In this document: piece by piece, positions 1-9,722 of the stretch
Numbering within the stretch: position 1 is the first letter of the stretch
How the letters are laid out: the number at the start of each line of letters is the position of its first letter
Virus record (IMG/VR): IMGVR_UViG_3300035698_018411
Location: 1-22,213 of that record
Strand: one strand, 5' to 3'
From: a virus
Length of the DNA: 22,213 bases
The notes under the pieces: model-generated
Told to the model about the DNA's origin: nothing
Databases searched by the model: none
The model's input: only the letters and a program-made list of their open reading frames with translations
Program-made: the position numbers and the translations under genes

Positions 1-444
1 AATTCTTTAGACATATTATCAACAGCTTGATTGTATACACCCATTATTGAAGCACTTAACCAATCAGAAAAATTCATAACATCAAACGCGTATTCTTCAA
101 CCTTTCCAAACAATTCTTTGAACACAGCATCCCGTGCTTTTAAATATTCACTGCTGATCATTGAAGTCAGCCATTCTGGAAAGTTTATAACATCAGTGAT
201 AAAACCTTCTACACTAGGAAATAACTCAGTAGATAGATTATCGATTGCTTGATTGTATACACCTTTAATTTCACCAAATAACCATGAAGTAAAAGATCCT
301 ACTTCACCAACGAATTCATCAAGTGCAGCTGCAGCTTTTGGGAATTTAGTTGCGTAAAGAGCGATACCTTTGTCATATAACGATTTCATCTCAGTAGCAA
401 TGAAATCACCAAAATTCGTTATGTCCGTTACTGTTTCATCCATA
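1..444 (-). repeat. In-gene repeats of about 111 and 222 bp in the tape-measure candidate
   Basis: The 17-mer GCTTGATTGTATACACC (plus-strand reading) occurs exactly at 25-41 and 247-263, 222 bp or 74 codons apart. At protein level the spacing halves to 37 residues, with Trp-Leu cores at residues 289, 326 and 363 and a weaker unit around 249. The array continues past the window edge, so copy number is unknown. The left and right limits given are approximate. Confidence 0.7.
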
Positions 445-1148
445 TCAAAATTCTTGATCCACTGAACGAAATCGAATACCATTTCTCCAAGTGCTTCACC
501 CGCTTCTTGAAGTTTAGCTTCTACATCTTCTTTCTTGAGCATTCCAAAACTAATCAATTCTACTAAGTCACCAATCATACCTTGGAATGCATCACGTAAG
601 CGATCTATTGTAGGTCCATCAGATTCTAAGAAATTCTCAACAAAACTAGACATCATTGTTAAAATAGCAGTGATAGGTAAAAATACTCTACCAATGAGTC
701 TTTTAAACCCTAAGCCACCCAGAGCAGCACCAGTTCCAGCACCACCAATTAAACCACCAAGTAGTCCTCCAGCAGCAGGTAGAAACGATCCTAAATCAAA
801 ACCCTCTTCTTCTTTGGGTTTAACATTAGTGTCTGTTGGTTTAGGTGCATAGTATTCTCCAGAACCTGGATCATCAGCAATGTCAGCTTGTTCTTTTTCA
901 AATTCAAATTGCTCAGAAAGGATATTTCTGAGTTGAGTAAAACCATCATCAATTCTTCCTAGATAAAGTATGGTATCATTTCTGAGTTTAACAATCTCTT
1001 CCGAGATTTCAATTAGCATACCAAGTGGAGTGTCCATCCCAATATCACCACCGATGCCACTACCTTCAGCTCCACCGCTAATGGAATCTAACACGGTAAC
1101 CATATCCGCATTTCTGGAATTGTTAAATGGTACTAATTGTCCAGCCAT
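1..1148 (-). CDS. Probable tail tape-measure protein, N-terminal part (C-terminus beyond window)
   Basis: An uninterrupted frame from the ATG at 1146-1148 runs off the left edge, leaving 382 residues without a stop. Residues 45-90 look helical and charged. An Ala/Gly-rich stretch at 124-147 leads into a hydrophobic segment near 151-170 that could enter a membrane. From about residue 245 there is a helical repeat of roughly 37 residues with an aromatic-Leu/Ile core (F249, W289, W326, W363) and twice the motif GVYNQA-I/V-DN (296 and 370). Long helical repeats plus a Gly/Ala-rich hydrophobic segment suit a tape measure, which fills the tail tube and sets tail length. Its place directly downstream of a tube-family gene and a gp26-like gene agrees. 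The start lies 2 nt after the stop of the short upstream ORF, with only a weak A-rich ribosome site. T4 gp29 (590 aa) is the expected functional counterpart, but I see no diagnostic gp29 motif. Another large tail structural protein is the alternative. Confidence 0.6.
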   Translation of the reverse strand, partial: MAGQLVPFNNSRNADMVTVLDSISGGAEGSGIGGDIGMDTPLGMLIEISEEIVKLRNDTILYLGRIDDGFTQLRNILSEQFEFEKEQADIADDPGSGEYYAPKPTDTNVKPKEEEGFDLGSFLPAAGGLLGGLIGGAGTGAALGGLGFKRLIGRVFLPITAILTMMSSFVENFLESDGPTIDRLRDAFQGMIGDLVELISFGMLKKEDVEAKLQEAGEALGEMVFDFVQWIKNFDMDETVTDITNFGDFIATEMKSLYDKGIALYATKFPKAAAALDEFVGEVGSFTSWLFGEIKGVYNQAIDNLSTELFPSVEGFITDVINFPEWLTSMISSEYLKARDAVFKELFGKVEEYAFDVMNFSDWLSASIMGVYNQAVDNMSKE

Positions 1149-1150
1149 AT

Positions 1151-1369
1151 TTATTTTTCTTTTTGTTTTTCTTGGAGATACTCATGGAGCATGTGTATGT
1201 ATATAGTTCTTTCGAATGGCATCATGTTATCTAATTCGGTTAAACTATATTTATGATGTTGCATGAGAGCGAAGTTAACTTTATAGTGATTACCTAGGCT
1301 GTCGTGGGAGAGCCCAATTTGAAAAAATTTCGCAATCCTTGGATCTTTTGTTCCACCTCCGCACCACAC
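1151..1369 (-). CDS. Short -1-frame ORF, probable frameshifted extension of the gp26-like protein
   Basis: This frame is -1 relative to the gp26-like gene and overlaps its end. As a stand-alone ORF its only upstream start is a GTG at 1367-1369, inside the gp26 gene and without a Shine-Dalgarno sequence. The next ATG (1262-1264) also lacks one. Entry by -1 frameshifting at 1321-1330 would add 56 residues, from Gln encoded at 1319-1321 to the stop at 1151-1153, giving a fusion of about 286 aa. The encoded segment reads as a compact helical domain with an HHKYSL stretch, a DNMMPFER motif and a charged Lys/Glu tail. Similar endings occur, from memory, in small tail proteins of marine myoviruses. 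Its position matches T4 gene 51, another hub-assembly factor beside gene 26, but I cannot show homology to gp51. Coding status is likely; mode of expression is inferred. Confidence 0.6.
   Translation of the reverse strand: MWCGGGTKDPRIAKFFQIGLSHDSLGNHYKVNFALMQHHKYSLTELDNMMPFERTIYIHMLHEYLQEKQKEK
1294..1330 (-). other. Putative -1 programmed ribosomal frameshift site (slippery run plus hairpin)
   Basis: On the minus strand the gp26 frame reads CGA AAT TTT TTC AAA. It contains two overlapping X-XXY-YYZ heptamers in the correct phase: A-AAT-TTT (1330-1324) and T-TTT-TTC (1327-1321). Three bases later TTGGGCT (1317-1311) can pair with AGCCTAG (1300-1294), counting two G-T wobbles, around a 10-nt loop; the 3' arm contains the gp26 UAG stop. 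A slip back by one base leads into the open frame ending at 1151. The heptamers and phase are seen directly; frameshifting is inference. Confidence 0.6.
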
Positions 1370-2012: not shown

Positions 2013-2576
2013 TTAACCCTCAGATGCAGTACTTAGTGGTTTTTCGTAAAACCTATGGTATGACCAAGTTACTGGTAGTGTTGCGAAGTCTTGTGAACTC
2101 CAATCATATGTTATATCCCCAACAGCTATAGGGATTGCTTCTTCAAACCTAAGAGTTTTCTTCACCTTTTGGGCTTCATCGAAAATATCAATTTCTAAAT
2201 TTCCAATATACTCATCGTAATATCCGTGATCAAACATGCTTGGTGTATATGCAGCTTCTTCACGATAGTTACCAACAATTAAGTCCTGCCACTGAAGGAT
2301 GATATCCCTCTCTTTTAGATCTGTACTTAACAAAATTATCATGCTTATGTCAGCATAATTTGCTAGTGTTGCGATCTTTTGCTCTGGTCCATACATGAAA
2401 AACTCAGAAGATCTGATTACTCTTCCAGGTAAAGGCATGTTCAAAATTCTTAAAGATAAGTCACGCGTATTAGCACTCATGCTAGGTGGTGTGGTTACCC
2501 TTCCTTCAAAGTGTGCTAGCTTTGAATAGCCAGTCTTATTTATTGCACCTTGGAAATCGTGGATGTTGAATGACAT
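2013..2576 (-). CDS. Tail-tube-family protein (gp19/gp54-like)
   Basis: The product has 187 residues. The N-terminus (SFNIHDFQGAIN, then F-x-G-R-V) resembles the opening of T4 gp54 and tube proteins. The C-terminal half has the tube-fold signature: a strand with IDIFDEAQKVKKTLRF, then EAIPIAVGDITYDW, then a strand reading ATLPVTWSYHRFYE. In gp19 and gp54 the corresponding text ends in a D-x-TFDVTF-x-YR-type strand. gp19 builds the tail tube and gp54 starts its polymerisation on the baseplate. The protein is about gp19-sized and much shorter than T4 gp54 (about 320 aa). It opens the leftward operon from a perfect late promoter at 2606-2613, with AAGG about 9 nt upstream of its ATG. Its position just ahead of a chaperone-like gene and a tape measure favours a true tube or tube-initiator subunit. 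I cannot tell gp19 from gp54 by eye. Confidence 0.68.
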   Translation of the reverse strand: MSFNIHDFQGAINKTGYSKLAHFEGRVTTPPSMSANTRDLSLRILNMPLPGRVIRSSEFFMYGPEQKIATLANYADISMIILLSTDLKERDIILQWQDLIVGNYREEAAYTPSMFDHGYYDEYIGNLEIDIFDEAQKVKKTLRFEEAIPIAVGDITYDWSSQDFATLPVTWSYHRFYEKPLSTASEG

Positions 2577-5256: not shown

Positions 5257-6758
5257 CATATAAAGCGTACAAATTAGACGACGCGTATAATGTAGCGATT
5301 TTCAATTACAAGAAGGAAGTAGTGCAGATTAAGGACATGGTTGAGGAATTCAATGTTTTCTTTGATATTTTCAATCAGGTTTCAAAAATAGAGTTAGTAA
5401 TACAGGATGCAGTAGGTTTACTTGAAAAGATGCCAATCATTGGGGATGAGCAAGTACTCATCTCTTTCAAGTCAACACAATTAGAAGTAGCAAATCATAT
5501 TTTCTTTGAGACTGAAGTTAATATGCTCTTTCAGATTTACAAAATATCTGATAGAAAGCAAACTGCTAACAGAGCTAGCACATATAAACTTCACGGGATT
5601 TCCCAAGAAGGTATTAACAATATGCGTTATGCTGTGTACCGTTCGTACATAGATATGAAAGCAGAAGATATGGTAGCTAGTATTTTCGAAGAATTCATGG
5701 TTCCTTCTGATTCTGAATTTGATGTGTACGGTAAGAATCAAGATATAGATTCTGATGATGCGGACGGTAAATACGCATTAGTTTTCACTGGAGAAAAACC
5801 TCTTGATGCTATTAACATTGTTGCTAAAGAAGCTAAACGTTATAGTGGTGGGAGTAAAGCATCTAATTATGTGTTCTTTCAAACTAAAGATCGCTGGGTT
5901 TTCAAAACTTTAGATGGTTTGATTTCTGAAAATCGTGACCTACGAGATGCTGGTGGAGAAGGATATGTTCAAGATCTTTATTACTTAGATCCCAGAATTG
6001 AAACTGAAGATACTAAAACTATTTTCGGTAAAAACATCCGAGCAGATCAAAAAATATTGTCACTTCATATCAATCGTCAATTAGATAATTCTGACAATCT
6101 AGAAAAAGGTTTATTCAATCACACTACTCAAACGATTGATACTTTGACTAAGAGATTCACGAATGATGGATTCATTTATGATGAAAATAAAGAAGACATT
6201 GCACATTTAGAAAATCTCAAATCACCTACTAGACCACATGTACATGCACCTGAAAGTATATACGCAGCTGAAGGAACTGCTACTCGTTTGGAAGAATTTC
6301 GAGTAAAGAACTTCCTGATTTCTCATATTGGGCCTGAATATTATGATCCTGAGATTTTCACTGAAGCAATGAAGGATGCTGATCCTCAATTAAAGAATCC
6401 ACGGAAACTTCATGAATTCTATAAATTCGATTATGCTTCAAGAGTTAAGCTTAACAATATCGTTGTAGCAGTGTCAGTACCCGGAAATACAGATCTAGAT
6501 ATTGGGCAACTTATCAATCTCAATATTGTAGGTAACAATCTCCAATCACCAGACACTCAAGAAAAAACTGCGCTTAACAGATTGTTAGGTAGCGAAAAAT
6601 ATGGTGGATATTTTATAATCACAACACTCAGACACGCGTATTCAAAAAATGGTGAACAATTTGTAACACACTTTCAATGTGTTAAAGACGTTTACACTTC
6701 AACTTTATCTGGATATTCCGCAGATAATACTGCTGTACAACAAGATATTTCAACATGA
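5253..6758 (+). CDS. 27: gp27-like baseplate hub protein
   Basis: The product has 501 residues, longer than T4 gp27 (391). The N-terminal barrel region contains the typical FDIFNQVSKIELVIQDA segment followed by MPIIGDEQVLISFKS. A helical-plus-strand middle includes MKAEDMVASIFEEFMVPS and GEKPLDAINIVAKEAKRYSGG, with YVFFQTKDRWVFKTLDGLI next, as in gp27/gp44-type hubs. The end (GGYFIITTLRHAYSKNGEQFVTHFQCVKD) corresponds to the FYVDEVIHELSNNNSVTH-type end of T4 gp27. gp27 is the trimeric hub that carries gp5, and the gp5 gene follows with an ATGA overlap, which supports the pairing. The extra length is mostly an insertion around residues 290-370. It begins at the ATG overlapping the gp53 stop with no clear ribosome site, so expression likely depends on coupling. 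Confidence 0.78.
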   Translation: MTYKAYKLDDAYNVAIFNYKKEVVQIKDMVEEFNVFFDIFNQVSKIELVIQDAVGLLEKMPIIGDEQVLISFKSTQLEVANHIFFETEVNMLFQIYKISDRKQTANRASTYKLHGISQEGINNMRYAVYRSYIDMKAEDMVASIFEEFMVPSDSEFDVYGKNQDIDSDDADGKYALVFTGEKPLDAINIVAKEAKRYSGGSKASNYVFFQTKDRWVFKTLDGLISENRDLRDAGGEGYVQDLYYLDPRIETEDTKTIFGKNIRADQKILSLHINRQLDNSDNLEKGLFNHTTQTIDTLTKRFTNDGFIYDENKEDIAHLENLKSPTRPHVHAPESIYAAEGTATRLEEFRVKNFLISHIGPEYYDPEIFTEAMKDADPQLKNPRKLHEFYKFDYASRVKLNNIVVAVSVPGNTDLDIGQLINLNIVGNNLQSPDTQEKTALNRLLGSEKYGGYFIITTLRHAYSKNGEQFVTHFQCVKDVYTSTLSGYSADNTAVQQDIST

Positions 6759-8611
6759 GTATAATCACAGATCAATTTAGATGGTTCTTTGGTGTTGTAG
6801 AAAATAACAATGACCCAGTGCAAGTAGGTAGAGTTCAAGTGAGGTGTTTCAACCTTCACACACAGGATAAAGATTTACTCCCTACAGAAGAACTTCCATG
6901 GGCACAAGTAGTGATGCCTTCTAATAGTGCATCTCTCGGTGATGCTGGTTGGACTCCCACAGGAATGCTTAATGGTTCTTGGGTTTTTGGTTTTTTCGCC
7001 GATGGTGAAGATAAGCAACGACCTTTTGTCCTTGGTACTATTCCAGGTATACCGTTTGATCGCCCAAATCCTGAATTGGGTTTTAATGATCCTAATGGTT
7101 TCTATCCTTCTAGACTAGGTGAACCAGACGTTAACCGTCTCGCTAAATCTGATGGAAATGAGCATACTTCAATTGGATTTCGAAATGCTCTTGTAGATGC
7201 TTTGATTGAAGAACCTATTCCAAACAGAGATTCTATTTACCCACAAAATCATGTACGTGAAACTGAGTCTGGTCACTTTGTAGAGTTTGATGATACGCCT
7301 GGCGCAAATAGAATGACTCACTTCCATAATTCTGGAACAAGTGAGGAAGTCCATCCCAATGGTGATCGTGTCTCGCGAGTGATGGGTGACAACTTCGAAG
7401 TGAGATTCGGTGATGACAAAATTCATGTACACGGAGACGTTAAGGTTTTTGTTGATGGTGATTCAACGGTATATGTACGTAACAATGCTGAAATTCAAGT
7501 AGATGGTAACTTAGCTACCTTCGTACAAGGTGATTACACGCTGGATGTCACTGGAAATTACGCAGTGAGAGCAAAAGGCAGTCTCACACATAGTACTGAT
7601 GGTGATGCTTTGCTTAGTTCTGTTGGAAACTATACTGTTAAATCTTCTGAGATTGATATAAATACTGGTGAGGGTGATATTAGTCTTTACTCTGCTGGAG
7701 ATATTCGTGGTTGGTACTGCGATGATTTTGTTTTTCAGAACACTTGCATTTTTGTAGGCCCTTCAGCATCTGGTGCTGTATTGAAACCTGGCTATGATGA
7801 TAATGGAAGACCTGTTATTAATTACGGTGCAGATAACCCAGTATATACTAATGCTGGCGGAACTTCATATGATCCTGGAGATCCACTTGCACCTCAATCG
7901 CAAGGTGGTCCTTCATCGGGTTCTATTTCACCAGCAGCAACAATTACTGAAAAGAGCAGTTCAAGTTCTGGTGGATCTTCGGCAAGTACAGATGGTGAAC
8001 TTGGATCCTTGTCAGCAAGGTACGAATCTAACGGTAACCCTTGCGCGATCGGTAATGATAGAGTCGGTGGACCTAGTTATGGTAAATATCAAATTGCTAC
8101 AAGAGTTGGTACATTTAAAAGTTTCATGTCATATCTGAGTAAGAACCACCCAGAGTATCATAAGACATTACAAAATGGTGGAGGCACAAGTTCTGCTAAA
8201 GCTGGATCTGGAAAATTCAAAACAGCTTGGAAATCTATCTGTTCGAAAGATGGTTTCGCTTCAGCCCAACATAATTTCATTCAAGCAACACATTACGAAC
8301 ACCCAAAGAGAGCATTGAAAAAGAAAGGGTTCGATCTAGACACGCGCTCAAAAGCAGTTAAAGATGTTGTTTGGTCTACTGCAGTACAGCATGGCCCAAA
8401 CTCTTCAGTATTCAAAATTGCGTTAGATAAATCTGGTGGTGCTTCTGCAACTGACAAAGCTTTCATCAATGCGGTATACGATGAAAGAGGAAGAGAATCT
8501 GGTGGAGTACTTGTCAGATTTAAAAGAAGTACGTCTGGTGTTCAAGCATCAGTTAGAAGAAGATTTGCTAGCGAACGTAAAGGTGCGCTAGCTTCACTCG
8601 CAAAAGGATAA
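6755..8611 (+). CDS. 5: gp5 baseplate central spike with C-terminal muralytic-like domain
   Basis: The protein has 618 residues. Residues 1-100 form the gp5 OB-fold domain (FRWFFGVVENNNDPVQVGRVQVR, then LPWAQVVMP and FADGEDKQRPFVLGTIPG). Residues 165-205 are the linker with ESGHFVEFDDTPG. Residues 225-318 are an 8-residue-period beta-helix: V at 225, 233, 241, 249, 257, 265 and G two residues later in most turns, continuing through G275, G283, G291, G307 and G315. The T4 lysozyme insertion before the helix is absent. After a Ser/Gly linker (400-413), residues 417-618 form a lysozyme-superfamily-like domain with YESNGNPCAI and DRVGGPSYGKYQ. E424 is the likely catalytic acid and D435 is conserved-looking. 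gp5 punctures the envelope and digests peptidoglycan. OB and helix calls are firm; the enzyme class of the C-terminal domain is inferred from the E-S-x-G...GG-x-SYG-x-YQ pattern. Confidence 0.88.
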   Translation: MSIITDQFRWFFGVVENNNDPVQVGRVQVRCFNLHTQDKDLLPTEELPWAQVVMPSNSASLGDAGWTPTGMLNGSWVFGFFADGEDKQRPFVLGTIPGIPFDRPNPELGFNDPNGFYPSRLGEPDVNRLAKSDGNEHTSIGFRNALVDALIEEPIPNRDSIYPQNHVRETESGHFVEFDDTPGANRMTHFHNSGTSEEVHPNGDRVSRVMGDNFEVRFGDDKIHVHGDVKVFVDGDSTVYVRNNAEIQVDGNLATFVQGDYTLDVTGNYAVRAKGSLTHSTDGDALLSSVGNYTVKSSEIDINTGEGDISLYSAGDIRGWYCDDFVFQNTCIFVGPSASGAVLKPGYDDNGRPVINYGADNPVYTNAGGTSYDPGDPLAPQSQGGPSSGSISPAATITEKSSSSSGGSSASTDGELGSLSARYESNGNPCAIGNDRVGGPSYGKYQIATRVGTFKSFMSYLSKNHPEYHKTLQNGGGTSSAKAGSGKFKTAWKSICSKDGFASAQHNFIQATHYEHPKRALKKKGFDLDTRSKAVKDVVWSTAVQHGPNSSVFKIALDKSGGASATDKAFINAVYDERGRESGGVLVRFKRSTSGVQASVRRRFASERKGALASLAKG

Positions 8612-8613
8612 AA

Positions 8614-9009
8614 ATGAGAGAATCCCAAGAAACAATTTTTCACGATCTTTCTTTAAATATGGTAGCACACCCATTAACTGGTAATGTAAAGACTGTGAAG
8701 AACACAGATGCTATTAAGCAAGCTGTGAAAATGATTGTGTTACATAATTTCTATGAGAAACCTTATAATCCAACCTTTGGAGGCAACATCTTAGCTATGC
8801 TCTTTGATAACATGACTGATATGACAACATTCATGATTCAGAAAAACATAGCTTTAGCGTTACAAAATTATGAGCCAAGAATATTATTACTTGATGTGCG
8901 TGTACGAGCTGCTACAGATTTGAATACTTTAGGAGTCACCGTTGTCTTTAAACCCATAAACGAAATAGAAACACAAACAGTAAACGTGATTCTAGAGAGA
9001 GTTCGATGA
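8614..9009 (+). CDS. 25: gp25 baseplate wedge protein
   Basis: The product has 131 residues, almost the length of T4 gp25 (132). The GPW/gp25 family core is clear: a VKTVKNTDAIKQAVKMIVLHNFYEKPYNPTFG block, then a helix with MLFDNMTDMTTFMIQKNIALALQNYEPRI containing the conserved EPR, and strands with VRVRAATDLNTLGVTVVF. gp25 is the wedge subunit whose relatives occur in all contractile tail systems, where it contacts gp6 and the sheath. It follows the gp5 stop by 2 nt with an AAAAGG ribosome site. Its TGA overlaps the ATG of the kinase-like gene (ATGA). Confidence 0.93.
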   Translation: MRESQETIFHDLSLNMVAHPLTGNVKTVKNTDAIKQAVKMIVLHNFYEKPYNPTFGGNILAMLFDNMTDMTTFMIQKNIALALQNYEPRILLLDVRVRAATDLNTLGVTVVFKPINEIETQTVNVILERVR

Positions 9010-9722
9010 AAACTTTTAATCAATTCAATGAATCAAATAACAAAGCTCAATCCCGTTGGGAATCACAAGCTGGAATTAAATTCGGGAGTAAGAGTGAACA
9101 AACTATTTTTCGCAGTGCGTATAGCAATCCCGATATAGCAGAACATGAAATTAGAAAAATGGGCTATACATCCGCTGGAGAAGGTTACTTTTCTGTAGTA
9201 TTTAAAAAATCTGGATCTAAAAATGTCATTAAGCTTAACCTGATTAGGGATAAATGTTGGTTACAGTTTGCAGAATTAGCGATGAAAGATTCTAACAGTA
9301 AACATTCACCTAGAATTCCTTGGATGAAAGTATATGGGGAAGAGAAAAAATTCTTTATTGTTGCAATGGAACCTTTGTTATCATTGGAAAATCACAATAA
9401 TCTTAAACTAATTAAAAATAAAAATGATCTTTGTGCATTAGCTATGGACGTTGATTTACACGATACTGAACTTGGGATTGTGTTAGAAAGATATGCTGCG
9501 CTACACTTGTATAGAAAGATACAATATCCAAAGCATGAAGAGATCATTCAAGAATCACTGCAAAATTATGTAGTATCCAGCGCATATGTTTCATCTAGTA
9601 TAGCAAAAGCTTTTGTAAAAATGCGGAAATTCAGGGGCACATGCTTTAATGATTTACACCTCGGTAACGTAATGTTAAGACAGCGCGATAACAATTTAGT
9701 CATAACAGACCCATGGGCATAA
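9006..9722 (+). CDS. Protein-kinase-like protein with capsid-targeting-like N-terminus
   Basis: The 238-residue product has the main kinase landmarks in order: a glycine-rich loop AGEGYFSVVF (57-66), a candidate ATP lysine K76 in NVIKLNL, a hinge-like FIVAMEPLLSL (117-127), a catalytic-loop-like CFNDLHLGNVMLR (D216, N221), and a metal-binding Asp in ITDPWA (D235, in place of DFG). It ends three residues after that Asp, so the activation segment and later C-lobe helices are missing. Related minimal kinases exist in other marine phages, from memory. The start MKTFNQFNES resembles the MKTYQEFIAE capsid-targeting peptide of T4 internal proteins. An AGAGAGAG ribosome site precedes the ATG, which overlaps the gp25 stop. 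Substrate is unknown; it could phosphorylate host or virion proteins, or be an inactive structural relative. Confidence 0.65.
   Translation: MKTFNQFNESNNKAQSRWESQAGIKFGSKSEQTIFRSAYSNPDIAEHEIRKMGYTSAGEGYFSVVFKKSGSKNVIKLNLIRDKCWLQFAELAMKDSNSKHSPRIPWMKVYGEEKKFFIVAMEPLLSLENHNNLKLIKNKNDLCALAMDVDLHDTELGIVLERYAALHLYRKIQYPKHEEIIQESLQNYVVSSAYVSSSIAKAFVKMRKFRGTCFNDLHLGNVMLRQRDNNLVITDPWA

Follow-up and report, generated by a model that had tools for sequence, protein, structure and literature searches.

A conserved T run near the end of gp26-like genes points to programmed −1 frameshifting in a probable tail assembly chaperone gene of T4-like phages

A single gp26-like gene in a 22,213-nt stretch of DNA from a marine T4-like phage (IMG/VR record IMGVR_UViG_3300035698_018411; the whole stretch is referred to here as the window) very probably encodes two proteins, putative tail chaperones, the second of which is predicted to arise by programmed −1 frameshifting at the heptamer T_TTT_TTC (1327–1321). 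Most ribosomes would read gp26 through to its UAG and yield a 238-aa short form (TAC-N), while a minority would slip back one base on this heptamer and yield a 286-aa product (TAC-NC), consisting of the short form plus a 56-residue gp51-like domain. As at dnaX, two features would probably favor slippage: a Shine–Dalgarno (SD)-like sequence ~10 nt upstream and RNA structure on the downstream side. If the short and long products act as lambda gpG and gpGT do, they would coat the tape measure protein and recruit tail tube subunits at a fixed ratio. We infer both the occurrence and the efficiency of frameshifting at the window's site from sequence, chiefly by comparison with relatives of the gene.

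Genes at this locus lie on the minus strand in the order tail tube (2576–2013), gp26-like (2010–1294), −1 extension (to 1151), and a long open reading frame (ORF; 1148–3). The gp26-like ORF ends GGA TTG CGA AAT TTT TTC AAA TTG GGC TCT CCC ACG ACA GCC TAG and, as a sequence-only reading of the window had noted, AAT TTT TTC holds two overlapping heptamers in the right phase, which read at 1327–1321 and 1330–1324. Direct reading also bore out that the −1 frame is open to 1151, where it terminates at TAA (1153–1151), and that neither of its candidate start codons (GTG 1369 and ATG 1264) has a ribosome site; the gp26 ATG is preceded by GAGGG. The products expected from this arrangement, 238 aa and about 286 aa, are likewise recovered (230 + 56 = 286 aa for the predicted fusion).

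Table 1 Features of the gp26-like locus in the window.
Feature	Position	Strand	Basis
Tail tube protein gene, directly upstream of gp26-like gene	2013..2576	−	phrog_45, E=8.8e-22
gp26-like gene, short form (TAC-N), 238 aa	1294..2010	−	Pfam T4_baseplate PF12322, E=1.6e-49; phrog_150, E=7e-53
AAGGA, SD-like, weak form of conserved GAGGG-type element	1336..1340	−	Family-level synonymous selection
Overlapping heptamer A_AAT_TTT, in phase here	1324..1330	−	AAT precedes run in only 17/130 relatives
Slippery heptamer T_TTT_TTC, inferred −1 frameshift site	1321..1327	−	In phase; T_TTT_TTN in 130/132 relatives
Predicted stem-loop, 3 nt past slip site, contains UAG of short form	1294..1317	−	Predicted fold
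Zero-frame UAG stop, 8 codons past slip site	1294..1296	−	Direct reading of sequence
−1 extension, gp51-like C-terminal domain (QIGLSHDSL...KQKEK), 56 residues post-slip	1151..1321	−	phrog_634, E=1.9e-26
Presumed tape measure gene, directly downstream, runs off window	3..1148	−	Position; relatives' annotation

Conservation gives strong support to this site. We gathered gp26-like loci from IMG/VR, searching by the gp26 part and by the extension, and from named phages, obtaining 132 loci with a recognizable gp26 gene; because these were found via similarity to the window's two proteins, the sample is tilted to relatives keeping both parts. T_TTT_TTN occurs in phase 0–9 codons before the stop in 130 of the 132 genes. 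Clustering these 130 by protein identity gave 81 groups at the 70% level and 35 at the 50% level; they come from Kyanoviridae, Schizotequatrovirus, Chrysonvirus, Ceceduovirus, Emdodecavirus, Pootjesviridae, and Pelagibacter phages. The two genes without the run belong to a T4-type Klebsiella phage (L137) and to an odd locus (L087). TTTTTTC is the commonest form (84 loci), followed by TTTTTTT (29), TTTTTTA (15), and TTTTTTG (2); no representative of the 81 clusters at 70% departs from T at any of the first six positions. Elsewhere in gp26 genes, the in-phase heptamer appears in just 7 of 14,457 codon steps. Synonymous constraint is also evident within the run, where TTT is always chosen, compared with 486 TTT to 233 TTC in gp26 gene bodies. 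Across the family, chance is very far from accounting for the slippery run. Its distance from the zero-frame stop is typically one codon (93 loci) or eight (26 loci, the window included). The comparison thus upheld the sequence-only reading with respect to T_TTT_TTC, though not its second slip candidate: we rejected A_AAT_TTT, which is probably incidental since AAT before the run is unconserved (Table 1). Among the relatives examined, none lacked the run while encoding a short ORF with an independent start.

The extension, which had been described as hidden, is instead a known gp51 domain that many phage annotations treat as a separate gene and others shorten or miss. The family it matches, phrog_634, is that of gp51 ("baseplate hub assembly catalyst"), and it is 53–70% identical to 48 relatives. 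It also matches positions 228–279 of phrog_150, which shows that the extension is present, within a single frame, in some phrog_150 members. In public records, gp51 is unannotated in ACG-2014e, S-CAM1, Cronobacter S13, and Aeromonas CC2, and is annotated from an internal ATG in HTVC008M and phiAS5. In four loci (L139, L140, L131, and L133), annotation skips ~160 nt after gp26; this gap, which extends to the next gene, corresponds to the gp51 domain, apparently missed there because it has no start codon.

Most public records, in keeping with two separate genes, would have gp51 initiated alone or by translational coupling near the gp26 stop. An ATG lies just after or overlapping that stop in KVP40, S-CRM01, phiM9, and P-SSM2, TAATG-type overlaps likewise produce a −1 relation, and in about one-sixth of relatives a start codon coincides with the site or closely follows it. 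However, in 108 of the 130 loci with the run, the segment that begins at the upstream −1 stop and reaches 15 nt beyond the first base of the run contains no ATG, GTG, or TTG, so none lies ahead of the conserved domain; in 38 of the 130, the −1 stop is at most 12 nt upstream of the run. Where records place the gp51 start at the following ATG, part of the conserved domain is lost, and separate initiation gives no reason for the invariant T run, its phase, or its synonymous positions. Given the lack of a start codon in most relatives, we rejected separate initiation, which we regard as very unlikely. In support of programmed frameshifting, the −1 frame is open through the gp51 domain in 129 of the 130 loci. 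In S-SCSM1 (locus L127, 1472–1656), the sole such relative examined, the gp51 domain is in +1 relative to gp26, and the −1 frame meets a stop 18 nt after the start of the slippery run; this arrangement is either a sequence error, as is perhaps the case, or a real change.

Two further elements flank the run. Across the family, an SD-like element, typically GAGGG, is found ~10 nt upstream, and it is selected at synonymous sites at family level. The glycine at this element is invariant, and the codon preceding it is GAG in 31 cases and GAA in 10, compared with 414 and 1039, respectively, in gene bodies. Predicted pairing energy with the anti-SD core is −6.03, versus −4.56 ± 0.16 in synonymous resamples, and the difference persists with one value per 50% cluster (−5.84 vs. 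−4.53 ± 0.26). The window's AAGGA has an anti-SD core energy of −4.7, stronger than every control segment of its own gp26 gene. Downstream, RNA between +12 and +72 past the site folds at −11.26, versus −6.97 ± 0.32 when synonymous codons are resampled without altering the protein (−10.05 vs. −6.70 ± 0.41 with one sequence per 50% cluster), and the same test found no folding excess in two segments further downstream. Structure in this region is therefore under selection at synonymous sites at family level. A single conserved hairpin was rejected, since stem register differs among relatives; for that reason, folding energy against synonymous resampling was tested rather than covariation.

In the window itself, both stimulatory elements are weak. 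The 7-bp hairpin that the sequence-only reading placed 3 nt downstream, enclosing the UAG, is present at 1317–1294 (with an inner 2 bp; −8.6 kcal/mol), but it is only modestly unusual in a single sequence (z −1.66) and alone proves little, since 13 of 200 shuffles were as stable. The E. coli dnaX cassette consists of an SD-like sequence ~10 nt upstream, the heptamer A_AAA_AAG, and a downstream stem-loop, and gives rise to a truncated product. The three elements at gp26-like genes resemble this cassette in order and spacing, but the heptamer is T_TTT_TTN and the product would be extended.

These flanking elements also bear on transcriptional slippage, in which an extra base in some mRNAs at the T run would produce the same fusion. 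The site is a homopolymer and one inserted U gives the same frame, but transcriptional slippage usually needs runs longer than 6 T, and the run is only 6 T long in 101 of the 130 loci (7 T in 24 and 8 T in 5). Moreover, both selected signals, the SD-like element and the structure downstream, work through ribosomes. We rejected this mechanism on run length and consider it extremely unlikely. Errors in sequencing or assembly, or the decay of a once-fused gene, could also underlie the split, as a single-base indel would join the frames; but 130 records share the arrangement and have conserved protein on either side, which already refutes this reading and leaves it a negligible probability.

A pair of tail assembly chaperones is suggested by the position of the locus and by its lambda G/GT-like layout, and we infer the chaperone role by this analogy. 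The upstream neighbor is assigned as tail tube by its match to phrog_45, and the downstream neighbor as tape measure by position and by the annotation of relatives only (public records for Cr30 and HTVC008M carry a tape measure label at the equivalent slot). The downstream ORF itself gave only a weak tape measure match (phrog_1272, E=0.067), and no relative of its protein was found in the phage collection searched. The first 119 nt of another IMG/VR contig, 3300035698_008589 (L141, 1–119), are identical to positions 1–119 of the window (minus strand), so this contig probably continues the presumed tape measure gene, for a total of ~600 aa.

An AlphaFold2 model of the gp26-like protein (mean pLDDT 91.3) matched other gp26-type proteins in BFVD; against the PDB, it showed a weak match to the HK97 gp13 tail chaperone (2ob9, E=6.5, target TM 0.42), a likeness that is only suggestive. 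In the Pfam search, the match of this protein to Phage_TAC_7 (E=0.08) fell below the cut-off. The extension is predicted to form a three-helix domain (mean pLDDT 78). Searched by sequence against solved structures, gp26 had no match, and the extension matched only coiled coils, by chance. Many gp26-like proteins have cysteine pairs and weak zinc-ribbon matches (for example, around residues 95–99 and 213–216 of the window's gp26-like protein), and T4 gp51 contains CPKC; a metal site in gp26-family chaperones is possible.

Two plus-strand genes elsewhere in the window also deserve mention. Among the baseplate genes, an ORF of 238 aa (9006–9722) has motifs that appear kinase-like by eye (FSVVFKK...VIKL, DLHLGNVML, and VITDPWA) and gave no Pfam match. 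A gp5-like spike (6755–8611) has Gp5 OB and repeat domains, and its C-terminal part matches a VgrG3-like C-terminal domain (PF21277, E=1.2e-40).

T4 offers a natural counterpart to the predicted fusion. The gp26-like protein matches PF12322 and phrog_150 ("baseplate hub") and the extension phrog_634, and the T4 proteins match the same models. T4 gp26 (208 aa) matches the short family only and ends GAG TTC TTT GAG TTA CTA TAA, without a slip site. In T4 gp51 (249 aa), T4_baseplate covers residues 1–201 and phrog_634 residues 147–246, so gp51 is an unbroken fusion of both parts. T4 and its close relatives therefore have separate genes, a short gene 26 and an unbroken gene 51, for what their relatives would make from one gene by a −1 shift. 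The suggestion that a gp26-type protein of a T4-like phage uses frameshifting is thus supported for the relatives, 130 of 132 of which carry the signal, but not for T4 itself.

The frameshift device is already known from many tailed phages, with lambda gpG/gpGT as the precedent for tail chaperones made in this way (PMC5009743). The parallel with lambda G/GT drawn in the sequence-only reading is supported by the comparative evidence: in lambda, P2 (E/E'), and HK97, as predicted for the window, a short form is accompanied by a rarer, C-terminally extended form through −1 slippage shortly before the first gene ends, and lambda-type chaperone genes likewise lie between the tail tube and tape measure genes (the latter presumed in the window). 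However, lambda/HK97-type chaperones have a different slippery sequence and no significant sequence or fold match to the window's proteins. Another parallel is found in Vandenendeviridae and Andersonviridae, myoviruses whose TAC-N genes also have a conserved poly-T site at the 3′ end (PMC12846349); these belong to another phage lineage and have the motif GTTTTT, and the frameshift section of that paper describes neither an SD-like element nor RNA structure.

Papers citing Vladimirov, Gautam and Davidson (2022, Virology 566:9–15) indicate that, for T4-like phages, frameshifting in the genes of tail chaperones is already in print. According to these papers, that study identified the T4-like tail assembly chaperones gp26 and gp51, the same two families (phrog_150 and phrog_634) as at the window locus. 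The Vandenendeviridae study, which reports poly-T −1 frameshifting, cites it for the same device in T4-like TAC-N genes (PMC12846349), and the PRFect preprint cites it for T4-like phages in which the short and fused forms have a gene each (PMC10274946). In view of these citations, the window locus is best seen as a further, well-supported case of a known device. We lean slightly toward a broader proposal, part of which may already be in Vladimirov et al. 2022, that T4-like phages ancestrally make gp26 and gp26–gp51 by a three-part, dnaX-type cassette and that separate genes 26 and 51 stem from a late duplication in the T4 branch.

The comparison indicates that, for cyanophages and other T4-like phages, many public records mis-annotate gp51 as separate, truncated, or absent. 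With an SD-like element upstream and structure downstream, the efficiency of frameshifting could be probed by simple mutations. If the duplication in the T4 branch was indeed late, the "hub assembly catalyst" gp51 of T4 would be its long tail chaperone. The locus connects the old T4 genetics, in which gp26 and gp51 figure as helpers of the baseplate hub, with the general mechanism of tail chaperones.
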